DNA of 35,075 nt. Origin: Anaerolineales bacterium. GTDB taxonomy: Bacteria > Chloroflexota > Anaerolineae > Anaerolineales > E44-bin32. Under the pieces are notes generated by a model. That model made no database searches. It had not been told where the DNA came from and saw only the letters and a program-made list of their open reading frames with translations. Within the stretch, counting starts at the first letter, position 1, and each line of letters opens with the position of its first letter. The translations under genes were made by a program, and so were the position numbers. Location of the stretch: positions 1-35,075 of the forward strand of contig JARRPX010000014.1 in the NCBI GenBank assembly GCA_037382465.1, read 5' to 3'. This document shows, in pieces, positions 6,651 through 35,020 of the stretch.

Positions 6651-6679
6651 TTGACGGTAGAACATTTGTTCTATATAAT
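6651..6679 (+). promoter_or_regulatory. Promoter with embedded LexA-like operator
   Basis: TTGACG (6651-6656) and TATAAT (6674-6679) are separated by exactly 17 bases. The spacer is filled by the palindrome TAGAACATTTGTTCTA (6658-6673), whose 7-base arms are perfect. The core GAAC-N4-GTTC is the operator pattern of Gram-positive-type LexA. Binding here would block RNA polymerase directly. That LexA is the repressor is inferred; a near-identical box stands at 11093. Confidence 0.8.
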
Positions 6680-6741
6680 CAGAATACCAGTGCGCTTTGC
6701 GGAACTTCACGACCCATCGGCCTGGTAGCGGGAGGTATTTC

Positions 6742-7293
6742 GTGTGGTTTCATCGTTGGTTGCGGCCGGAACGAATTCGCAGTTTCCTCGAGCCTGCCTC
6801 GGCGCGGCGCGAGCGATACCGGGTCGCCGAGCGGTCGGCGGTTTGGGGCGGAGAAGACAAGCATGCGGCGGCATCCGACCTTCAAAAAGACGCCGGGAAA
6901 AGCAACCGGCCGATATCGCGGCAGGCTTCGAGTAACGGGCACCTGATTTTCGAGACGGACAGCGAACTCTCTACCCAATTGTGGTTGGCGGCGCGCCTGC
7001 AGGACGTCACCCCGGAGACGTTGGTGGGCGACCTGCTCGTGCGCGGCCTCGAGCAGGAAGCGTTCCGCACCCGGGCGGAAGCCGCGCTGGGCACACTCAC
7101 GCCGCGCGAGCAGGAAATCGCCTGGCTCACGGCGCAAGGCCACACCAATCGCCAAATCGCCGAGGATCTGGTGATCTCGCCCGAAACCGTCAAGACGCAC
7201 ATGCGTCACGTGCTGGATAAGTTCAGCGTGAACAGCAAGGCCGATCTGCGCCTGCTCTTCGTCGATCTGGGCGTGCGCTGGTGGGAGCGCTGA
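6742..7293 (+). CDS. LuxR-type HTH transcriptional regulator, putatively SOS-controlled
   Basis: A 183-residue DNA-binding protein. The C-terminal part (about 118-176) is a GerE/LuxR helix-turn-helix: LTPREQEIAWL, then GHTNRQIAEDL and ISPETVKTHMRHVL, with the usual Glu, Ala, Val and Thr positions. Before it, residues 67-106 form a strand-helix-helix pattern that could be a ribbon-helix-helix-like or small oligomerisation unit. The first 60 residues are basic and probably disordered. No receiver domain is present, so it is not a classic response regulator. The start chosen is GTG 6742, because GGAGGT stands five bases before it; the frame is open to 6697 but that ATG has no ribosome-binding site. 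Its promoter carries a LexA-like box, so it may relay the DNA-damage signal to other genes. Its targets are unknown. Confidence 0.85.
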   Translation: MWFHRWLRPERIRSFLEPASARRERYRVAERSAVWGGEDKHAAASDLQKDAGKSNRPISRQASSNGHLIFETDSELSTQLWLAARLQDVTPETLVGDLLVRGLEQEAFRTRAEAALGTLTPREQEIAWLTAQGHTNRQIAEDLVISPETVKTHMRHVLDKFSVNSKADLRLLFVDLGVRWWER

Positions 7294-7429: not shown

Positions 7430-8233
7430 ATGCGTGAAGGTAAGCTGATCGAGGCGACTCCCGGGCCGCGCACGCGAGCGTCCCTGGCGGACGACCTGCG
7501 CCGCCTGGGTCTTCGGGCGGGCACGACCGTTCTGGTGCACAGTTCGCTGCATGCGTTGGGTTGGGTCTGCGGCGGTCCGGTCGCTGTGGTCCAGGCGTTG
7601 ATGGACGCGATCACGCCCGACGGCACGCTGGTGATGCCCACACATTCCGGCGACCTCAGCGATCCTGCCCTGTGGAAGAACCCGCCCGTCCCCGAAAGCT
7701 GGTGGCCGACGATTCGCCAGACCATGCCCGCATACGATCCGCGCACGACGCCCACGCGGGGGATGGGGCGCATCGTCGAGGTTTTTCGCACGTGGCCCGG
7801 CGTACGGCGCAGCGCCCATCCGGCGACATCGTTTGCCGCCTGGGGCTCGCAGGCCGCCTTCGTGACGGAAAACCATCTCCTGGATTACGAGATGGGGGAG
7901 ACATCACCGCTTGCGCGTGTTTACGATCTCGACGGCCGGGTGCTGCTCCTGGGCGTAGGCTACGACAGCAATACCTCGTTTCACCTCGCTGAGTATCGCT
8001 TGCCCAACCCCAAGCCCTCACGGCAGGGTGCGCCGATCATCGAGAACGGCCGGCGCGTCTGGAAGGAATTCGACGACATCGAAATCGACGATGATCCGTT
8101 CGGGCAGATCGGTGCGGATTTCGAGGCGGCCGGCAGCGTGCTCGAGGGCAAGGTGGGCTCGGCAGTTTCCCTGCTATTTTCACAGCGCAAGGCCGTTGAC
8201 TTTGCCCTGCAGTGGCTGCGGGGTCGCGCCTGA
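7430..8233 (+). CDS. AAC(3)-family (YokD-like) N-acetyltransferase
   Basis: A cytoplasmic acetyl-CoA-dependent N-acetyltransferase of the antibiotic-NAT (aminoglycoside 3-N-acetyltransferase) fold, 267 residues, normal family length. Visible motifs: VHSSLHALGWVCGG (about 36-49, acetyl-CoA binding), MPTHSGD (about 69-75), RRSAHPATSFAAWG with His130, and LLLGVGYDSNTSFHLAEY containing His185 and Glu188. Known family members include true aminoglycoside-resistance enzymes but also housekeeping proteins (YokD) and FrbF, which acetylates a biosynthetic intermediate. The substrate, and any resistance, cannot be stated from sequence. The ATG at 7430 follows GAAGGAGT. A rho-independent terminator lies downstream, so it is a single-gene transcription unit. 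Confidence 0.92.
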   Translation: MREGKLIEATPGPRTRASLADDLRRLGLRAGTTVLVHSSLHALGWVCGGPVAVVQALMDAITPDGTLVMPTHSGDLSDPALWKNPPVPESWWPTIRQTMPAYDPRTTPTRGMGRIVEVFRTWPGVRRSAHPATSFAAWGSQAAFVTENHLLDYEMGETSPLARVYDLDGRVLLLGVGYDSNTSFHLAEYRLPNPKPSRQGAPIIENGRRVWKEFDDIEIDDDPFGQIGADFEAAGSVLEGKVGSAVSLLFSQRKAVDFALQWLRGRA

Positions 8234-10966: not shown

Positions 10967-11092
10967 GCGCTTCTGCGCCTTGAGGCGCGCAATCCCCCTG
11001 AAATTCACCCCTCCCCCCTGGGCGTGATTCAATATCCCCCTCTTGGTTACACCCCAGGCGGGATGGCATTTTCCCGCACTGTGTTTAAAATA

Positions 11093-11108
11093 TAGAACAA
11101 ACGTTCTA
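11093..11108 (+). promoter_or_regulatory. LexA-like operator of the polB cassette
   Basis: TAGAACAAACGTTCTA has 6-base perfect arms (TAGAAC/GTTCTA) and the GAAC-N4-GTTC core. It matches the box at 6658 in all outer positions. It directly follows a TAAAAT (11086-11091) that can serve as -10; a -35 is weak. A further half-site GGAAC follows at 11114. It lies 36 bases before the first gene of the cassette. Confidence 0.75.
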
Positions 11109-11144
11109 TTCATGGAACAATCACACACCATCAGGAGGATCTGC

Positions 11145-11744
11145 ATGCATCACGGGAGTGACCCTTTTGCGTCCGCACAACTACCGTTACCGGCCGGCGA
11201 CCCGGCGCTGCTCGAGGCGCTGATGCAGCCGCGCGTCGCCCTGTTCTGGGGCGCGCACACGCCCACGCGGGCGCTCCTGACCATGCTCACCGCCCTGGCC
11301 GTCCGGGGCCAGACTCTGCGCGTTTTCGACGGGGGCAACCGTTTCGACGGTTACTTCGTCGCCAGGCTGGCGCGGCGCATGTGCAAACACCCCTACGCCG
11401 CGCTGGAGCGCATCCGTCTCTCGCGCGCCTTCACCTGCTTTCAACTGGCCGAGCGCATCGAAAAAACGCCGACCGGACCGGAGCCGATCTTCGTCCTCGA
11501 TCTGCTTACCACCTTCTACGACCAGAACGTGCCGCTGCGGGACAGCGAACGCCTGCTGGAGATCACTATTTCCCATCTGAAGCGTCTGGCGACGGTCAGC
11601 CCGGTGATCGTTGGGGCGCGCGAGCCGCGCGAGCTGGTGAAAGAACGTTGGGCTTTTTTGGATCAGTTGCAAACCGCCGCCGACATCGCCTGGCTGCTGC
11701 GTGCGCCGGAAGCGGGGCTCGAACGGCAGCCGAGGTTACTCTGA
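11145..11744 (+). CDS. RecA-like protein with degenerate P-loop (ImuA-like role proposed)
   Basis: A 199-residue protein, first gene of the LexA-boxed cassette. Its pattern is that of a RecA/RadA core: strand and loop VALFWGAHTPTRALLTML (about 31-48) where Walker A should be, a strand LRVFDGGNRFDGY, then IFVLDLLTTFYDQ (about 115-127) at the Walker B position with Asp119, and a helix and strand HLKRLATVSPVIVGAREP. The P-loop lacks the Gly-Lys-Ser/Thr, so ATP hydrolysis is doubtful. This recalls ImuA, a RecA-like protein lacking a normal Walker A that works with mutagenic polymerases, but similarity by eye is structural only. Start: ATG 11145 with AGGAGG six bases upstream; the frame is open to 11043 but that start would lie before the operator. 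No membrane segment is seen. Confidence 0.75.
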   Translation: MHHGSDPFASAQLPLPAGDPALLEALMQPRVALFWGAHTPTRALLTMLTALAVRGQTLRVFDGGNRFDGYFVARLARRMCKHPYAALERIRLSRAFTCFQLAERIEKTPTGPEPIFVLDLLTTFYDQNVPLRDSERLLEITISHLKRLATVSPVIVGAREPRELVKERWAFLDQLQTAADIAWLLRAPEAGLERQPRLL

Positions 11745-11806
11745 TGGGAATCGGGCTGCGTCTGCTTTGCCCGGTTCCGCGTTCCCGATTCATTGTGAGG
11801 TAGATC

Positions 11807-12121
11807 ATGGGCCGAACTCTTCCATCCATTACACAGGCGTTCCTCCACGAACAGCAATCGTTGTCCCGTTTTCGCCGCGCGCTGCGCATCGAGGATCAGC
11901 ACGCGCTCGACGACCTGCTCGCTGCTTCGCGCCATCACCTGGCCGCCGCGGCCTACGCTTCCCACCTGCTGCCCTTCGAGGTGATGCTTCTGGCCATGCT
12001 GGTCGAGGAGCACAAACAGGTGCTGCAGCTCGAAGGGCGCCTCGAGCACCTCGAGAATCTCGTCGAGGCGCTGCAGGCCGGTGCGGGGCGGCGGCTGGGC
12101 GCGCCCGACCGGGAGGGTTGA
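11807..12121 (+). CDS. Small helical protein of the polB cassette
   Basis: A 104-residue protein of no family I recognise. It is almost wholly predicted alpha-helical, with a hydrophobic middle (about 44-66, rich in Ala and Leu) and a Leu/Glu-rich coiled-coil-like stretch (about 66-92). The last dozen residues are basic and Gly-rich. ATG 11807 follows GAGGT. Its stop codon overlaps the polymerase start by one base (TGATG), so the two are very likely translated together. It is probably a bridging or regulatory subunit for the polymerase; that is inference from position alone. Confidence 0.75.
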   Translation: MGRTLPSITQAFLHEQQSLSRFRRALRIEDQHALDDLLAASRHHLAAAAYASHLLPFEVMLLAMLVEEHKQVLQLEGRLEHLENLVEALQAGAGRRLGAPDREG

Positions 12122-14529
12122 TGGTACCCGCTTTCGGCTGGATCTTCGACATCTATCCCGCCGCGGAGGGCATGGCCGTGTGGCTGCTCGACGAGGACGG
12201 CCGCGCTCACTTGCTGCGCGACACGTTCACGCCCTGCTTCTACGTGCGCGGGCCGCGGCAGGAACTGCGCGCCGTCTGCCGCATGCTGCGCGGGCAGCGC
12301 GCGCCGGTGACCCTGCGGCGCACGGAGCGCCTGGATCTGTTCCTCGATCGCGCCGTGGAGGTGCTCGAGGTCGGCGTGCGCATCCCCGGGTTGTTGCGGC
12401 GCCTGTTTCTTCAAACGGCTGAGTTTCGTCCCGACCTGACCTATTACGACGCCGACATCTCGCTGCCGCAGCGTTACGCTTTGGCGCGCGACGTTTTCCC
12501 GCTGGCGTACTGCGCCGTCGAACAGGAGGGGGAACGAATCCGGCACATCGAGGCGTTGGACAGCCCCTGGGAGATCGATTACCGTCTGCCGCCGCTGCGG
12601 GTGATGACGCTGCAGCTCGTCGACCAGAGCCGCGACCCGGGGCGCGGCCACCGCGGCGATTTGCTGGTGGAGATCGCCGGGGAGACGTTCCGCTTCCCGC
12701 GCAGCAAGGGCCGCGAGCTGCTGCTGGGCGTGCGCCATCTGCTCGAGCGCTTCGATCCCGACGCACTGGTCAGCACCTACGGCGACAACTACATCCTGCC
12801 GCGCTTGCTCGATCTCTCCCGGCATTACGGCATTCCCCTGCCGCTCAACCGCGACCGCACGAAAACGGTGCAGCGCAAATCGGCCTCTTCCTATTTCTCC
12901 TACGGCCGGGTGGTCTTCCGCAACGAGCAGCACACGCTTTTCGGCCGCTGGCACCTCGATCGCCAGAATGCTTTCCTCTCCAATGACTACGGCATGGACG
13001 GTATCCTCGAAATCTCGCGCCTGACCAACCTGCCCGTGCAAACCACGGCGCGCGTCTCCACCGGCACCGGCATCAGCGCCATGCAGGTCAACACCGCCCT
13101 GCGGCGCGGCGTGATGGTGCCCTGGCAGAAACGCCAGCCCGAAACGTTCAAGAGCGGCAACGACCTGCGCCTGGCGGACAAGGGCGGCCTGGTCTACACG
13201 CCCATCCTCGGCCTGCACGAACACGTCGCCGAACTCGATTTCACCGCCATGTATCCCAGCATCATGGTGCACTTCAACATCTCGCCCGAGACCGTCGGGG
13301 CAACGTGCTGCCCCGGAGAAGAGATCCCCGAGCTGGGAACCCGCGTGTGCCGCCACCGCCAGGGCCTGGTGCCGGAGACGCTGGCGCCGCTGCTCGAGAA
13401 ACGCAAGCGCTACAAGGCGCTCATCCGCCAGCTGCCCGGAGACGACCCGCGGGTCGAGGCCTACCGCCGGCGCTATTCGGCCCACAAATGGCTCCTGGTG
13501 ACCTGTTTCGGTTATCTGGGCTACAAGAACGCCCGCTTCGGGCGCATCGAGGCGCACGAGGCGGTCAACGCCTACGGCCGCGAGGTGCTGCTGCGCACCA
13601 AGGAGCTGGTCGAGGCGCGCGGCTTTCGCGTGCTGCACCTGTACGTCGATGGTCTCTGGATCCACAAACCCGGCGCGCAGCAGCGCCCGGATTACGAAGC
13701 GCTGCTCGAAGATATACACGCCGAGACCGGTCTGCAGATCGGCCTGGAGGGCGTCTACCGCTGGTTGGCGTTTCTGCCCTCGCGCACCGAGCCGCGCGTG
13801 ACGGTGGCCAACCGCTACTTTGGCGCCTACGAGGACGGCTCGTTGAAAATTCGCGGCATCGAGGCCCGCCGCCGCGACACGCCGCCCTACATCAAGCAGA
13901 CCCAGCTCGAGATGCTTGACATCCTGGCGCAGGGGGAAGACGCCAGCGGTTTCCGCGCCGCCATGCCCGCCGCGGTGGCCTGCGCCGCCCGGCGCCTGCG
14001 CCGGCTGCGCGCCGGCGGCGTGCCGGTGAACGAGTTGGTCGTCACCCACCGTCTCTCGCGCCGGCCGGAGGAATACGTCGTGCGCACGGTTGCCGCCCGC
14101 GTCGCCGTAGAGTTGGCCAACCGGGGCGTGGAACTCAGCCCCGGCGAGCGGCTGCGCTTCTTGCTCGTCCCCGGGCCGGAAAAAGCGCGCGCCTGGGAAC
14201 ACATCGAGGGCGAGATTGCCTACGATCGGGAAGCCTACAGCGAGCTCATGCTGCGCGCCGTCGAGAGCGTCTTTGCCGCCGTCGGTGTCGACCGGGCCAC
14301 GTTGGAAACCTGGCTGTTGGCCAACGCCGGCTACTGGGGCCCACCGGGGGTATTGCCGCCGCCTGGCGCGGACATCCGCATGCCGTTGTTGGCGCAAAGC
14401 AATTTCATCTGGGTTGGGAAACGAAGTACAGGGGTTCGGGAGCAGGACACGCAGGTCCGATCCCGTCTTCCGGTGTTAAGCGCAAGTCGCGAGCGGTTGC
14501 TGCTGCGGCCAGTGGGGACATCGCCATGA
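12121..14529 (+). CDS. B-family DNA polymerase, exonuclease motifs degenerate (PolB2-like)
   Basis: An 802-residue family-B polymerase, placed as a damage-inducible polymerase by its operon and operator. Polymerase motifs: A is ELDFTAMYPSI with Asp373; B is HKWLLVTCFGYLGYKNARFG (about 455-474), lacking the usual Asn-Ser; C is LHLYVDGLWI with Asp510, where the usual YGDTDS has become LYVDG. The KIRGIEARRRDTPP block (about 576-589) matches the template-primer-binding region. In the exonuclease domain, Exo I should read DIE but reads QLV (165-167), and the Exo II Asn and Asp are Tyr220 and Ile225. Proofreading is therefore probably lost, while the two main metal-binding aspartates remain. Motif B resembles the archaeal PolB2/Dpo2 group rather than E. 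coli Pol II, which keeps DIE. The start ATG 12121 overlaps the previous stop. The coding sequence is very GC-rich. The last 40 residues are unconserved. Confidence 0.92.
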   Translation: MVPAFGWIFDIYPAAEGMAVWLLDEDGRAHLLRDTFTPCFYVRGPRQELRAVCRMLRGQRAPVTLRRTERLDLFLDRAVEVLEVGVRIPGLLRRLFLQTAEFRPDLTYYDADISLPQRYALARDVFPLAYCAVEQEGERIRHIEALDSPWEIDYRLPPLRVMTLQLVDQSRDPGRGHRGDLLVEIAGETFRFPRSKGRELLLGVRHLLERFDPDALVSTYGDNYILPRLLDLSRHYGIPLPLNRDRTKTVQRKSASSYFSYGRVVFRNEQHTLFGRWHLDRQNAFLSNDYGMDGILEISRLTNLPVQTTARVSTGTGISAMQVNTALRRGVMVPWQKRQPETFKSGNDLRLADKGGLVYTPILGLHEHVAELDFTAMYPSIMVHFNISPETVGATCCPGEEIPELGTRVCRHRQGLVPETLAPLLEKRKRYKALIRQLPGDDPRVEAYRRRYSAHKWLLVTCFGYLGYKNARFGRIEAHEAVNAYGREVLLRTKELVEARGFRVLHLYVDGLWIHKPGAQQRPDYEALLEDIHAETGLQIGLEGVYRWLAFLPSRTEPRVTVANRYFGAYEDGSLKIRGIEARRRDTPPYIKQTQLEMLDILAQGEDASGFRAAMPAAVACAARRLRRLRAGGVPVNELVVTHRLSRRPEEYVVRTVAARVAVELANRGVELSPGERLRFLLVPGPEKARAWEHIEGEIAYDREAYSELMLRAVESVFAAVGVDRATLETWLLANAGYWGPPGVLPPPGADIRMPLLAQSNFIWVGKRSTGVREQDTQVRSRLPVLSASRERLLLRPVGTSP

Positions 14530-14978
14530 AACGTTCAAGCGTGTTCGTCGTCATCAGCGGTTTGATCAGCCTGACGGTCAACGTGTTGGCCATCGTCAGC
14601 TATTTCAGCGAGGGAGGCGCCTTTGCCGATTGGCATATCGACCCCGGTCTGTGGGTGGCGATCACCTTCGTGCTCATGTCCTACAGCCTGACGGCCTGGT
14701 CGGTGTTGATCTGGCGCTGGACGCGCAAGCGTGCGCGCAGCAGTAGACAAAAGATGCGCCGCTCGGCGGCCTTCCTGCTCACCGCGCTGGCGGCATTTCC
14801 GCTGCTGACCGTGTGGTTGTCCGTTTTGTTTTCGCTGGTCATCTTTACGGAGGCCACAGCGCCGCAGCGCTGGCTGCTGGCCATGGGCTGCGCCTGGGGA
14901 GCGACGCCGTTCATCAGCCTGGGATTGATCAGCGTGGGAGAAGTATTGGGGCCGTTGCTCAGCCGCAGCAAGGAATGA
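14526..14978 (+). CDS. Four-helix membrane protein at the end of the polB cassette
   Basis: A 150-residue membrane protein of unknown family with four likely helices, at about 7-28, 44-65, 81-107 and 116-142. Positively charged residues cluster between helices 2 and 3 (WRWTRKRARSSRQKMRRS), which predicts that loop to be cytoplasmic. The ATG overlaps the polymerase stop (ATGA), so it belongs to the same transcript. Small membrane proteins in SOS regulons often arrest division, but nothing here shows that function. It ends 45 bases before the convergent cytochrome gene. Confidence 0.75.
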   Translation: MKRSSVFVVISGLISLTVNVLAIVSYFSEGGAFADWHIDPGLWVAITFVLMSYSLTAWSVLIWRWTRKRARSSRQKMRRSAAFLLTALAAFPLLTVWLSVLFSLVIFTEATAPQRWLLAMGCAWGATPFISLGLISVGEVLGPLLSRSKE

Positions 14979-33776: not shown

Positions 33777-33818
33777 GATTCAAGTTTATGCCAGATGGGT
33801 TGCCTTGTCCATGCGGCA

Positions 33819-33847
33819 TTGTCCCGTATGTGCGTTCGTTGTATACT
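33819..33847 (+). promoter_or_regulatory. Promoter of dnaN
   Basis: TTGTCC (33819-33824), a 17-base spacer and TATACT (33842-33847). The predicted start near 33854 leaves a leader of about 33 bases before ATG 33887. There is no dnaA gene directly upstream. Confidence 0.55.
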
Positions 33848-33886
33848 TCCTCACGGTTTCGATCGAATTCCAAGGATGAATTGCAG

Positions 33887-35020
33887 ATGAAAGTCTCTTG
33901 TCTACAAGAAAATTTGGCCAGCGGGTTGAGCACCGTTGCGCGTGCGGTTGCCCAACGCAGCACGCTGCCCGTTCTGGGGAACGTGCTTGTCGCCGCCGAA
34001 GACGGCCGTCTTCGGCTCTCAGCCACCAACCTCGAGATGGGAATTACCTGCTGGATTGGGGCGAAGGTCGAAGAAGATGGTTCGACAACCATTCCGGCGC
34101 GAACGTTTGTCGACCTGGTGAACACGTTTCCCACGGATAAGGTCGAAATGGAACTGGACACCCGCACGCAAACGATCAACGTGCGGTGCGGGGTTTTCAA
34201 CAATGAGATCAAGTGCATCGATGCTCAAGAGTTCCCCCCATTGCCGCCATCCGATCTGGATGACGGGCTGGAACTCAACATCGAAGACTTGCGCGAGATC
34301 ATCCGCCAGGTCATTTTTGCTGCGTCCGCCGATGATGCACGACCGGTGCTAACTGGCGTTCTCGTCGAAATAGACGGCGACAAGATGACGATGGCGGCCG
34401 CGGATGGATTCCGCCTCTCTGTACGAAAGGCGCAGCTTTCATCACCGGCGAGCGGCCCCTTGAAAGCCATCATTCCTGCTCGCGCGTTGGCAGAACTGGC
34501 CCGCGTGATCTCGGAGGACGACGAAATTGTGACCATGCATCTTCCTCCCAATCGCGGTCAGGTGATCTTTCGCAGCACGAACGCCGAACTTGTCTCGCAG
34601 CTCATCGAAGGCACGTTCCCGGATTTCCAGGGCATCATCCCCACGAGTCACACGACCCGGAGTGTACTGCCCACGGGTGCATTCCTGAAAGCCTGCAAGG
34701 CGGCCGATATATTTGCCCGTGAAGCGGCGCATTCTGCGCGTTTGCGGATCACGCCGGGAAGTGAGCTCGAACCGGGCGTCGTCGAAGTGTCGGCGACCGC
34801 CGCGGAGACCGGGTCAAACGAAAGCATCGTCGATGCTACGATTGAGGGTGAGCCGATCGAAATCGCCTTTAATGTACGTTTCCTGGCTGAGGCGCTGAAC
34901 GTCATCGAAGCGCCCAACGTCGCTCTTGAAACCACCGGAGCTTCTTCCCCGGGTGTACTTCGCCCCGTCGACCAGACCGACTTCATCCATGTGATCATGC
35001 CCATGCATCTCGGTCGCTGA
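33887..35020 (+). CDS. dnaN: DNA polymerase III subunit beta (sliding clamp)
   Basis: The ring-shaped clamp that tethers polymerases to DNA. The 377-residue protein shows the three-domain clamp pattern: MKVSCLQENLASGLSTVARA with LPVLGNVLV, the NEIKCIDAQEFPPLP junction, RPVLTGVLVEIDGDKMTMAAADGFRLS, the second-domain TNAELVSQLIEGTFPDFQGIIP, and the C-terminal HVIMPMHLGR that forms the partner-binding pocket edge. Start: ATG 33887 with AAGGA ten bases before; the open frame extends to 33788 without a site. Unusually, it is next to a histidine kinase rather than dnaA and recF on the upstream side. It is a natural partner for the PolB of the SOS cassette, but no link is shown. Confidence 0.95.
   Translation: MKVSCLQENLASGLSTVARAVAQRSTLPVLGNVLVAAEDGRLRLSATNLEMGITCWIGAKVEEDGSTTIPARTFVDLVNTFPTDKVEMELDTRTQTINVRCGVFNNEIKCIDAQEFPPLPPSDLDDGLELNIEDLREIIRQVIFAASADDARPVLTGVLVEIDGDKMTMAAADGFRLSVRKAQLSSPASGPLKAIIPARALAELARVISEDDEIVTMHLPPNRGQVIFRSTNAELVSQLIEGTFPDFQGIIPTSHTTRSVLPTGAFLKACKAADIFAREAAHSARLRITPGSELEPGVVEVSATAAETGSNESIVDATIEGEPIEIAFNVRFLAEALNVIEAPNVALETTGASSPGVLRPVDQTDFIHVIMPMHLGR

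Follow-up and report, generated by a model that had tools for sequence, protein, structure and literature searches.

A 35,075-nucleotide stretch of the genome of an Anaerolineales bacterium (contig JARRPX010000014.1), hereafter the window, carries a bacterial PolB2 mutasome operon, in which three genes encode an inactive RadA homologue (iRadA), the small protein PPB2 and the B-family DNA polymerase PolB2. These genes are a described system and not a new invention. We propose, with a probability of about 0.9, that the cassette is a LexA-controlled translesion mutasome that is released by the SOS response, directly and/or via a LexA-boxed gene for a helix-turn-helix (HTH) protein. The proposal is carried by the identities of the genes, taken from sequence and predicted fold, by their conserved order, by the LexA operator and by the HTH gene; the likely biochemical role, damage induction in archaea and the presumed architecture of the complex are drawn from the literature on relatives. 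The operon is laid out as follows.

11093–11108, strand not applicable: LexA box TAGAACAAACGTTCTA, with a core shared with the operator of the host lexA gene.
11145–11744, plus strand: iRadA, 199 amino acids, an inactive RadA/Rad51 homologue.
11807–12121, plus strand: PPB2, 104 amino acids, a small helical protein of the arCOG07300 type.
12121–14529, plus strand: PolB2, 802 amino acids, a B-family DNA polymerase with YVD in place of DTD and dead exonuclease motifs.
14526–14978, plus strand: a small membrane protein with four hydrophobic stretches, translationally coupled, of doubtful membership.

The original prediction, made from the letters of the window, described four plus-strand genes with a palindrome 36 nucleotides (nt) 5′ of the first, and its coordinates and both gene overlaps were verified. 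That is, PPB2 and PolB2 overlap by TGATG, and PolB2 and the membrane protein gene by ATGA. A distance of 36 nt separates the LexA box from the ATG of iRadA (11145), which is served by an AGGAGG Shine-Dalgarno sequence at about 11132–11137, and a gap of 62 nt separates iRadA from PPB2. From 11145 to 14529, the three genes follow one another on one strand as iRadA-PPB2-PolB2, the arrangement of the bacterial PolB2 mutasome and the sole order reported in bacteria (PMC11791011).

The product of the first gene has no significant Pfam or NCBIfam match. Its AlphaFold2 model (predicted local distance difference test, pLDDT, 90.2) matches the folds of RadA, Rad51, Dmc1 and Rad51D with Z-scores of about 17–18 (maximum 18.2) over 158–174 residues. 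The model aligns with the ATPase cores only and has no N-terminal helical domain. At the Walker A (P-loop) position stands FWGAHTPTRALL, without GKT. As modelled, gene 1 is a RadA/Rad51 fold lacking a P-loop, in keeping with the RecA-like protein with a broken P-loop that had been predicted. In many relatives the C-terminus is QPRLF or QLPLF, a β-clamp-type motif such as is frequent, though not universal, in the iRadA or PolB2 of bacterial PolB2 mutasomes, and by its sequence iRadA probably also binds the β clamp. The gene for this clamp of DNA polymerase III, dnaN, lies in the same window (33788–35020). In one relative, G419, iRadA was matched in two pieces (L249), perhaps the result of a frameshift.

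PPB2 begins with MGRT, which is invariant across 27 aligned sequences, the window's included, and is a hallmark of PPB2 (PMC11791011). PolB2 has a Pfam DNA_pol_B match (1.3e-28), and its motifs were aligned as a profile of 16 relatives against one solved archaeal PolB. The catalytic motif YVD aligns to DTD, with the first Asp replaced and the second kept. The Exo I DIE and the Exo II Asp, the two exonuclease motifs that the profile alignment covered, are replaced, and the loss of these acidic residues agrees with the degenerate exonuclease foreseen from the letters. The D(K/R) loop motif is ADKGG in the window, and its Asp is invariant. Identity is 36–48% to 15 homologues of the same order or class and reaches at most 78% within the window's family. 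The window's PolB2 also has a C-terminal tail of about 40 residues (14400–14529), which is not seen in the aligned relatives.

Because the hallmarks of PolB2, PPB2 and iRadA match the published definitions, the cassette is a member of the described system. Makarova 2014 (PMC4104785) reported these three genes as a bacterial operon with a neighboring lexA gene, and Timinskas 2025 (PMC11791011) named and modelled the PolB2-iRadA-PPB2 mutasome; both papers found lexA enriched in bacterial PolB2 neighborhoods. Across 400 genomes from the phylum, strong matches to PolB2 occur mostly in the window's order and class, and a search of the closest relatives found PolB2 in 24 of 41 genomes, the window's own counted. 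The named scan gave at least 538 PolB2 relatives, of which 80 were kept. These are mostly from Anaerolineae, with others from Nitrospirota, Acidobacteriota, Armatimonadota, Methylomirabilota and Pseudomonadota. The three-gene order is kept wherever the contig is long enough, except at L130 and L144, where neither partner was detected, and its conservation in Anaerolineae is what the original prediction had asked of the relatives. At seven loci outside Chloroflexota (L162, L171, L172, L174, L181, L186 and L194), a lexA gene lies upstream of iRadA on the same strand. No lexA gene stands beside the operon in the Chloroflexota loci searched; a LexA operator is found there instead.

The cassette had been read as one of four genes. 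Three are conserved, and the membrane protein gene lies outside the conserved cassette. Its homologues occur in close relatives only, at 3 of 104 comparison loci (L119, L122 and L123) and, within the window's family, at 5 of 10 loci, two of these weak. Since the homologues are so narrowly distributed, a role as a fourth subunit was rejected, and the gene is probably a co-transcribed neighbor rather than a component.

The host genome has one lexA gene, with AGAACGTATGTTCC upstream (L071, G000:C15:63734), and the box before iRadA is of the same type. An exact GAACN4GTTC core lies upstream of lexA in 23 of 24 polB2-bearing genomes. In the 3.73 Mb host genome, the extended form AGAACN4GTTCT occurs seven times. 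A box of this type, with at most one mismatch, precedes the polB2 operon or iRadA at 68 of 77 Chloroflexota loci, so that the LexA-boxed cassette of the original prediction recurs at orthologous loci; eight rearranged control palindromes are found at 0–4 of the 77. At nine loci of other phyla, no such box was found before the polB2 operon. Within the window's family, the box is present at all 11 loci, six times exactly and five times as TAGCACN4GTTCTA. Host LexA keeps the Ser/Lys dyad (the Ser of GDSM and the Lys of TLK), as in a self-cleaving repressor. At its presumed cleavage site, GRIFASEP, it has Ala-Ser rather than Ala-Gly (L046/L071), a feature common to two other genomes.

A pattern search served to sample the host LexA regulon. 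At L074/L075 (G000:C13:88429 and 88459), a pair of AGAACN4GTTCT boxes with a spacing of 30 bp precedes a gene for an FtsK/SpoIIIE-type translocase, likely another SOS target. Boxes with one mismatch lie near ssb-like and phage-type integrase genes (L080, G000:C1:31259; L082, G000:C2:95136). A search of the literature on LexA in Anaerolinea and Chloroflexi returned nothing relevant.

The proposed mechanism is as follows. LexA would repress the operon in undamaged cells, and SOS induction would lift the repression. PolB2 would assemble with iRadA and a PPB2 trimer and would extend primers past lesions without proofreading, that is, carry out translesion synthesis of the extender type. Direct SOS control would act through a LexA box on the iRadA promoter. 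Indirect control would act through a LexA-boxed HTH gene, either first in the operon or, as in the window, a few kilobases upstream. The features that bear on the indirect route are as follows.

6658–6673, strand not applicable: LexA box TAGAACATTTGTTCTA, which takes up the spacer in a TTGACG-N17-TATAAT promoter (about 6652–6680).
6679–7293, plus strand: HTH protein frame, with the family-conserved part at 6940–7293 and an uncertain start codon.
10994–11066, plus strand: array of C blocks and a CACCC-type/GGGATGG element, upstream of the iRadA promoter, of putative function.

At 50 of the 77 Chloroflexota loci, an HTH gene of about 140 codons lies immediately ahead of iRadA in the same orientation. 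Where it comes first, the LexA box usually precedes the HTH gene, and exact boxes cluster there. In the window, the HTH gene lies 4.4 kb upstream of iRadA and has its own LexA-boxed promoter; the box is one of the seven exact AGAACN4GTTCT sites of the genome. Its product has a GerE match (1.9e-17) and is 32–42% identical to the products of the HTH genes that stand first in the PolB2 operons of relatives. Members of the family have a helical N-terminal region and a C-terminal HTH of the GerE/LuxR type. Foldseek gave good coverage of the GerE half and no clear match for the N-terminal half; from its sequence pattern and helix layout, this region may be ribbon-helix-helix-like.

The HTH protein is the sole full-length member of its family in the window's genome (138.6 bits, versus at most 59 for other LuxR-type HTH proteins). 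Full-length members score 130–161 bits in most genomes, versus at most 63 for generic LuxR proteins, with lower scores of 78–121 bits in some genomes of the window's family and for one partial match; each HTH-bearing genome has one full-length copy. An ordinary LuxR paralogue was rejected on this clear gap in score and the single copy. In four relatives from the family, the HTH gene likewise lies upstream and shares contig and strand with the operon. In three genomes of the family, it was not detected, an absence that is uncertain in draft genomes. The literature on PolB2 with LuxR held nothing relevant. A frame at 7430–8233, downstream of the HTH gene and upstream of the mutasome operon, resembles an aminoglycoside 3-N-acetyltransferase, an identity by appearance only.

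These arrangements suggest, as read from the DNA, a two-step relay from LexA to the HTH protein to the mutasome. LexA would repress the HTH gene, and the derepressed HTH protein would bind the phased C4 blocks and the CACCC/GGGATTG element adjoining the −35 and, after the first SOS wave, activate a leaderless iRadA promoter. We consider this possible, at somewhat less than even odds. The adjacency of the HTH gene, the clustering of exact boxes before it and the LexA box within the window's HTH promoter are all in favor. The iRadA promoter adds further support. In HTH-bearing genomes, a TAnnnT motif stands exactly 6 nt before the iRadA ATG in 35 of 55 cases and 7 nt before it in another 7 (about one expected at each distance), and with this spacing the mRNA would therefore be nearly leaderless. 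Upstream of iRadA in the window are phased runs of at least four Cs on the coding strand, with the CACCC-type/GGGATGG element, GGTTACACCCCAGGCGGGATGG, at 11045–11066. Among 49 HTH-adjacent loci, C runs 9–16 bp apart precede iRadA in 27 (2.4 expected), and G runs so placed in none. The C blocks are often followed by a GGGATTG-like element adjoining the −35 hexamer, and an element of the form CCY-N3-12-GGRAT is present at 10 of 11 loci of the window's family. The rules for C blocks and promoter were drawn up with these same loci already in view, so the counts are exploratory.

In most genomes for which no HTH gene was found, the iRadA promoter itself contains a LexA box; at L055, for example, the sequence reads TTGACA-TTAGAACGCATGTTCTA-TATAAT-N6-ATG. 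Leptolinea tardivitalis (L180), a culturable member of Anaerolineae, also combines a direct box with no HTH gene found. Within 200 bp of iRadA, a LexA box occurs in 14 of 17 HTH-absent versus 14 of 63 HTH-present cases (Fisher p = 9e-6, kinship ignored). Conversely, L067, L151, L157 and L195, where the HTH gene is elsewhere in the genome, keep C runs at iRadA and have no LexA box there. It is tempting, if still tentative, to propose a dedicated SOS relay that delays error-prone synthesis, with HTH-losing lineages rewired to direct LexA control. Several points weigh against the relay. The loci are not phylogenetically independent, and the Fisher tests ignore phylogeny; C blocks against HTH presence alone give only p = 0.05, and 22 of the 49 HTH-adjacent loci fail the C-block rule. 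Both wirings also coexist in the window's family, the window included, where C blocks or a GGGATKG element are followed by a LexA box where transcription would be expected to start, and the three family genomes without a detected HTH gene, uncertain as such absence is, stand on the same side.

The HTH protein might instead be a passenger or an autoregulator, with the C blocks serving as parts of a terminator or as a Rho-utilization site that curbs transcription running on from the HTH gene. Hairpins followed by T runs do occur in several gaps between the HTH gene and iRadA (e.g., L047, L053, L058 and L183). Moreover, Rho binds phased C-rich, G-poor RNA, which the C blocks resemble. However, C runs remain at iRadA where the HTH gene is elsewhere (L067, L151 and L157), and the strict spacing of the −10 element to the ATG marks a promoter and not only a terminator. 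We regard this explanation as possible, though somewhat less likely than the relay.

An SOS mutasome built on PolB by independent invention, the strong form of the original prediction, is highly improbable. The LexA box, the family-B polymerase and the partner genes are as it would have them, but all three partners carry hallmarks of the archaeal PolB2 set, and the published tree gives a single archaeal origin, from which one transfer from archaea to bacteria was deduced (PMC11791011). Thus, of "parallel invention or transfer", the transfer is favored and the parallel invention is not; the suggested kinship to archaeal PolB2/Dpo2 is upheld, and the claim of a new mutasome type is not, the same operon being already in PMC4104785 and PMC11791011. 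That the palindrome is a chance match unrelated to LexA has next to no probability: GAACN4GTTC does have 68 sites genome-wide, versus 30 for the reversed control pattern, but the extended 14-mer occurs only seven times, the position is conserved in 68 of 77 loci and the type is that of lexA's own operator, and chance was rejected on this conservation and on the control palindromes.

The proposal of a LexA-controlled PolB2 mutasome has its own difficulties. For this organism, we infer LexA binding, induction and the action of the HTH protein. That iRadA and PPB2 serve as subunits of the polymerase is itself predicted from structural models (PMC11791011), and the clamp motif of the window's iRadA is a variant, QPRLL. 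Furthermore, no LexA box was found in the roughly 200 bp upstream of recA, where contig C6 begins. As a candidate LexA target, recA was set aside as not informative, and the map of the host regulon is only partial because so little upstream sequence is available at this contig start. Two recA genes score above the family cut-off (L088 and L089; G000:C6 and C64), one of them at a contig start, and either contamination or a true duplication may account for them.

The main texts of PMC4104785 and PMC11791011 describe neither LexA operators nor the HTH gene nor the C-block promoter. Measured against those main texts, both the conservation of the LexA operators and the wiring linked to the HTH gene appear to be new. 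The operators would place an error-prone polymerase complex of archaeal derivation in the bacterial SOS regulon by more than gene neighborhood, and LexA, the HTH protein and the mutasome would form a testable circuit in a large phylum. If the relay is true, there was more than one way in which a transferred operon became wired into the stress response of its host, and the relay would time mutagenesis by a device unlike the UmuD-cleavage delay of Pol V.

In comparison with known systems, the cassette is closest to the PolB2-iRadA-PPB2 mutasome, with which it shares the genes, the bacterial order, MGRT, the replaced first Asp of DxD, the dead exonuclease, the P-loop-less RadA and the type of C-terminal clamp motif in iRadA. 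With the Sulfolobus Dpo2/PolB2 operon, it shares a damage-inducible type of PolB2 and radA-like and arCOG07300 partners (PMC11791011, PMC7390963). The difference lies in regulation, which in archaea is tied to factors of the Orc1/Cdc6 type and here to LexA. The ImuA-ImuB-DnaE2 cassette, to which the original prediction likened the operon, is a mutagenesis operon of several genes driven by LexA, the first of them RecA-like. The parallel holds as an analogy of plan only. A Pfam scan of the four proteins found no ImuB-like (Y family) or DnaE2 (C family) protein in the operon; the polymerase is of the B family, and the window's iRadA has a RadA/Rad51 fold. The sole protein with an IMS domain in the genome is encoded on another contig, and the only polymerase of the Y family found in the genome is DinB-like. 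Finally, DNA polymerase II of E. coli (polB/dinA) is likewise an SOS-regulated B-family polymerase, but it is a single subunit with an active exonuclease and an intact catalytic site, whereas the window's PolB2 has YVD and has lost the exonuclease.

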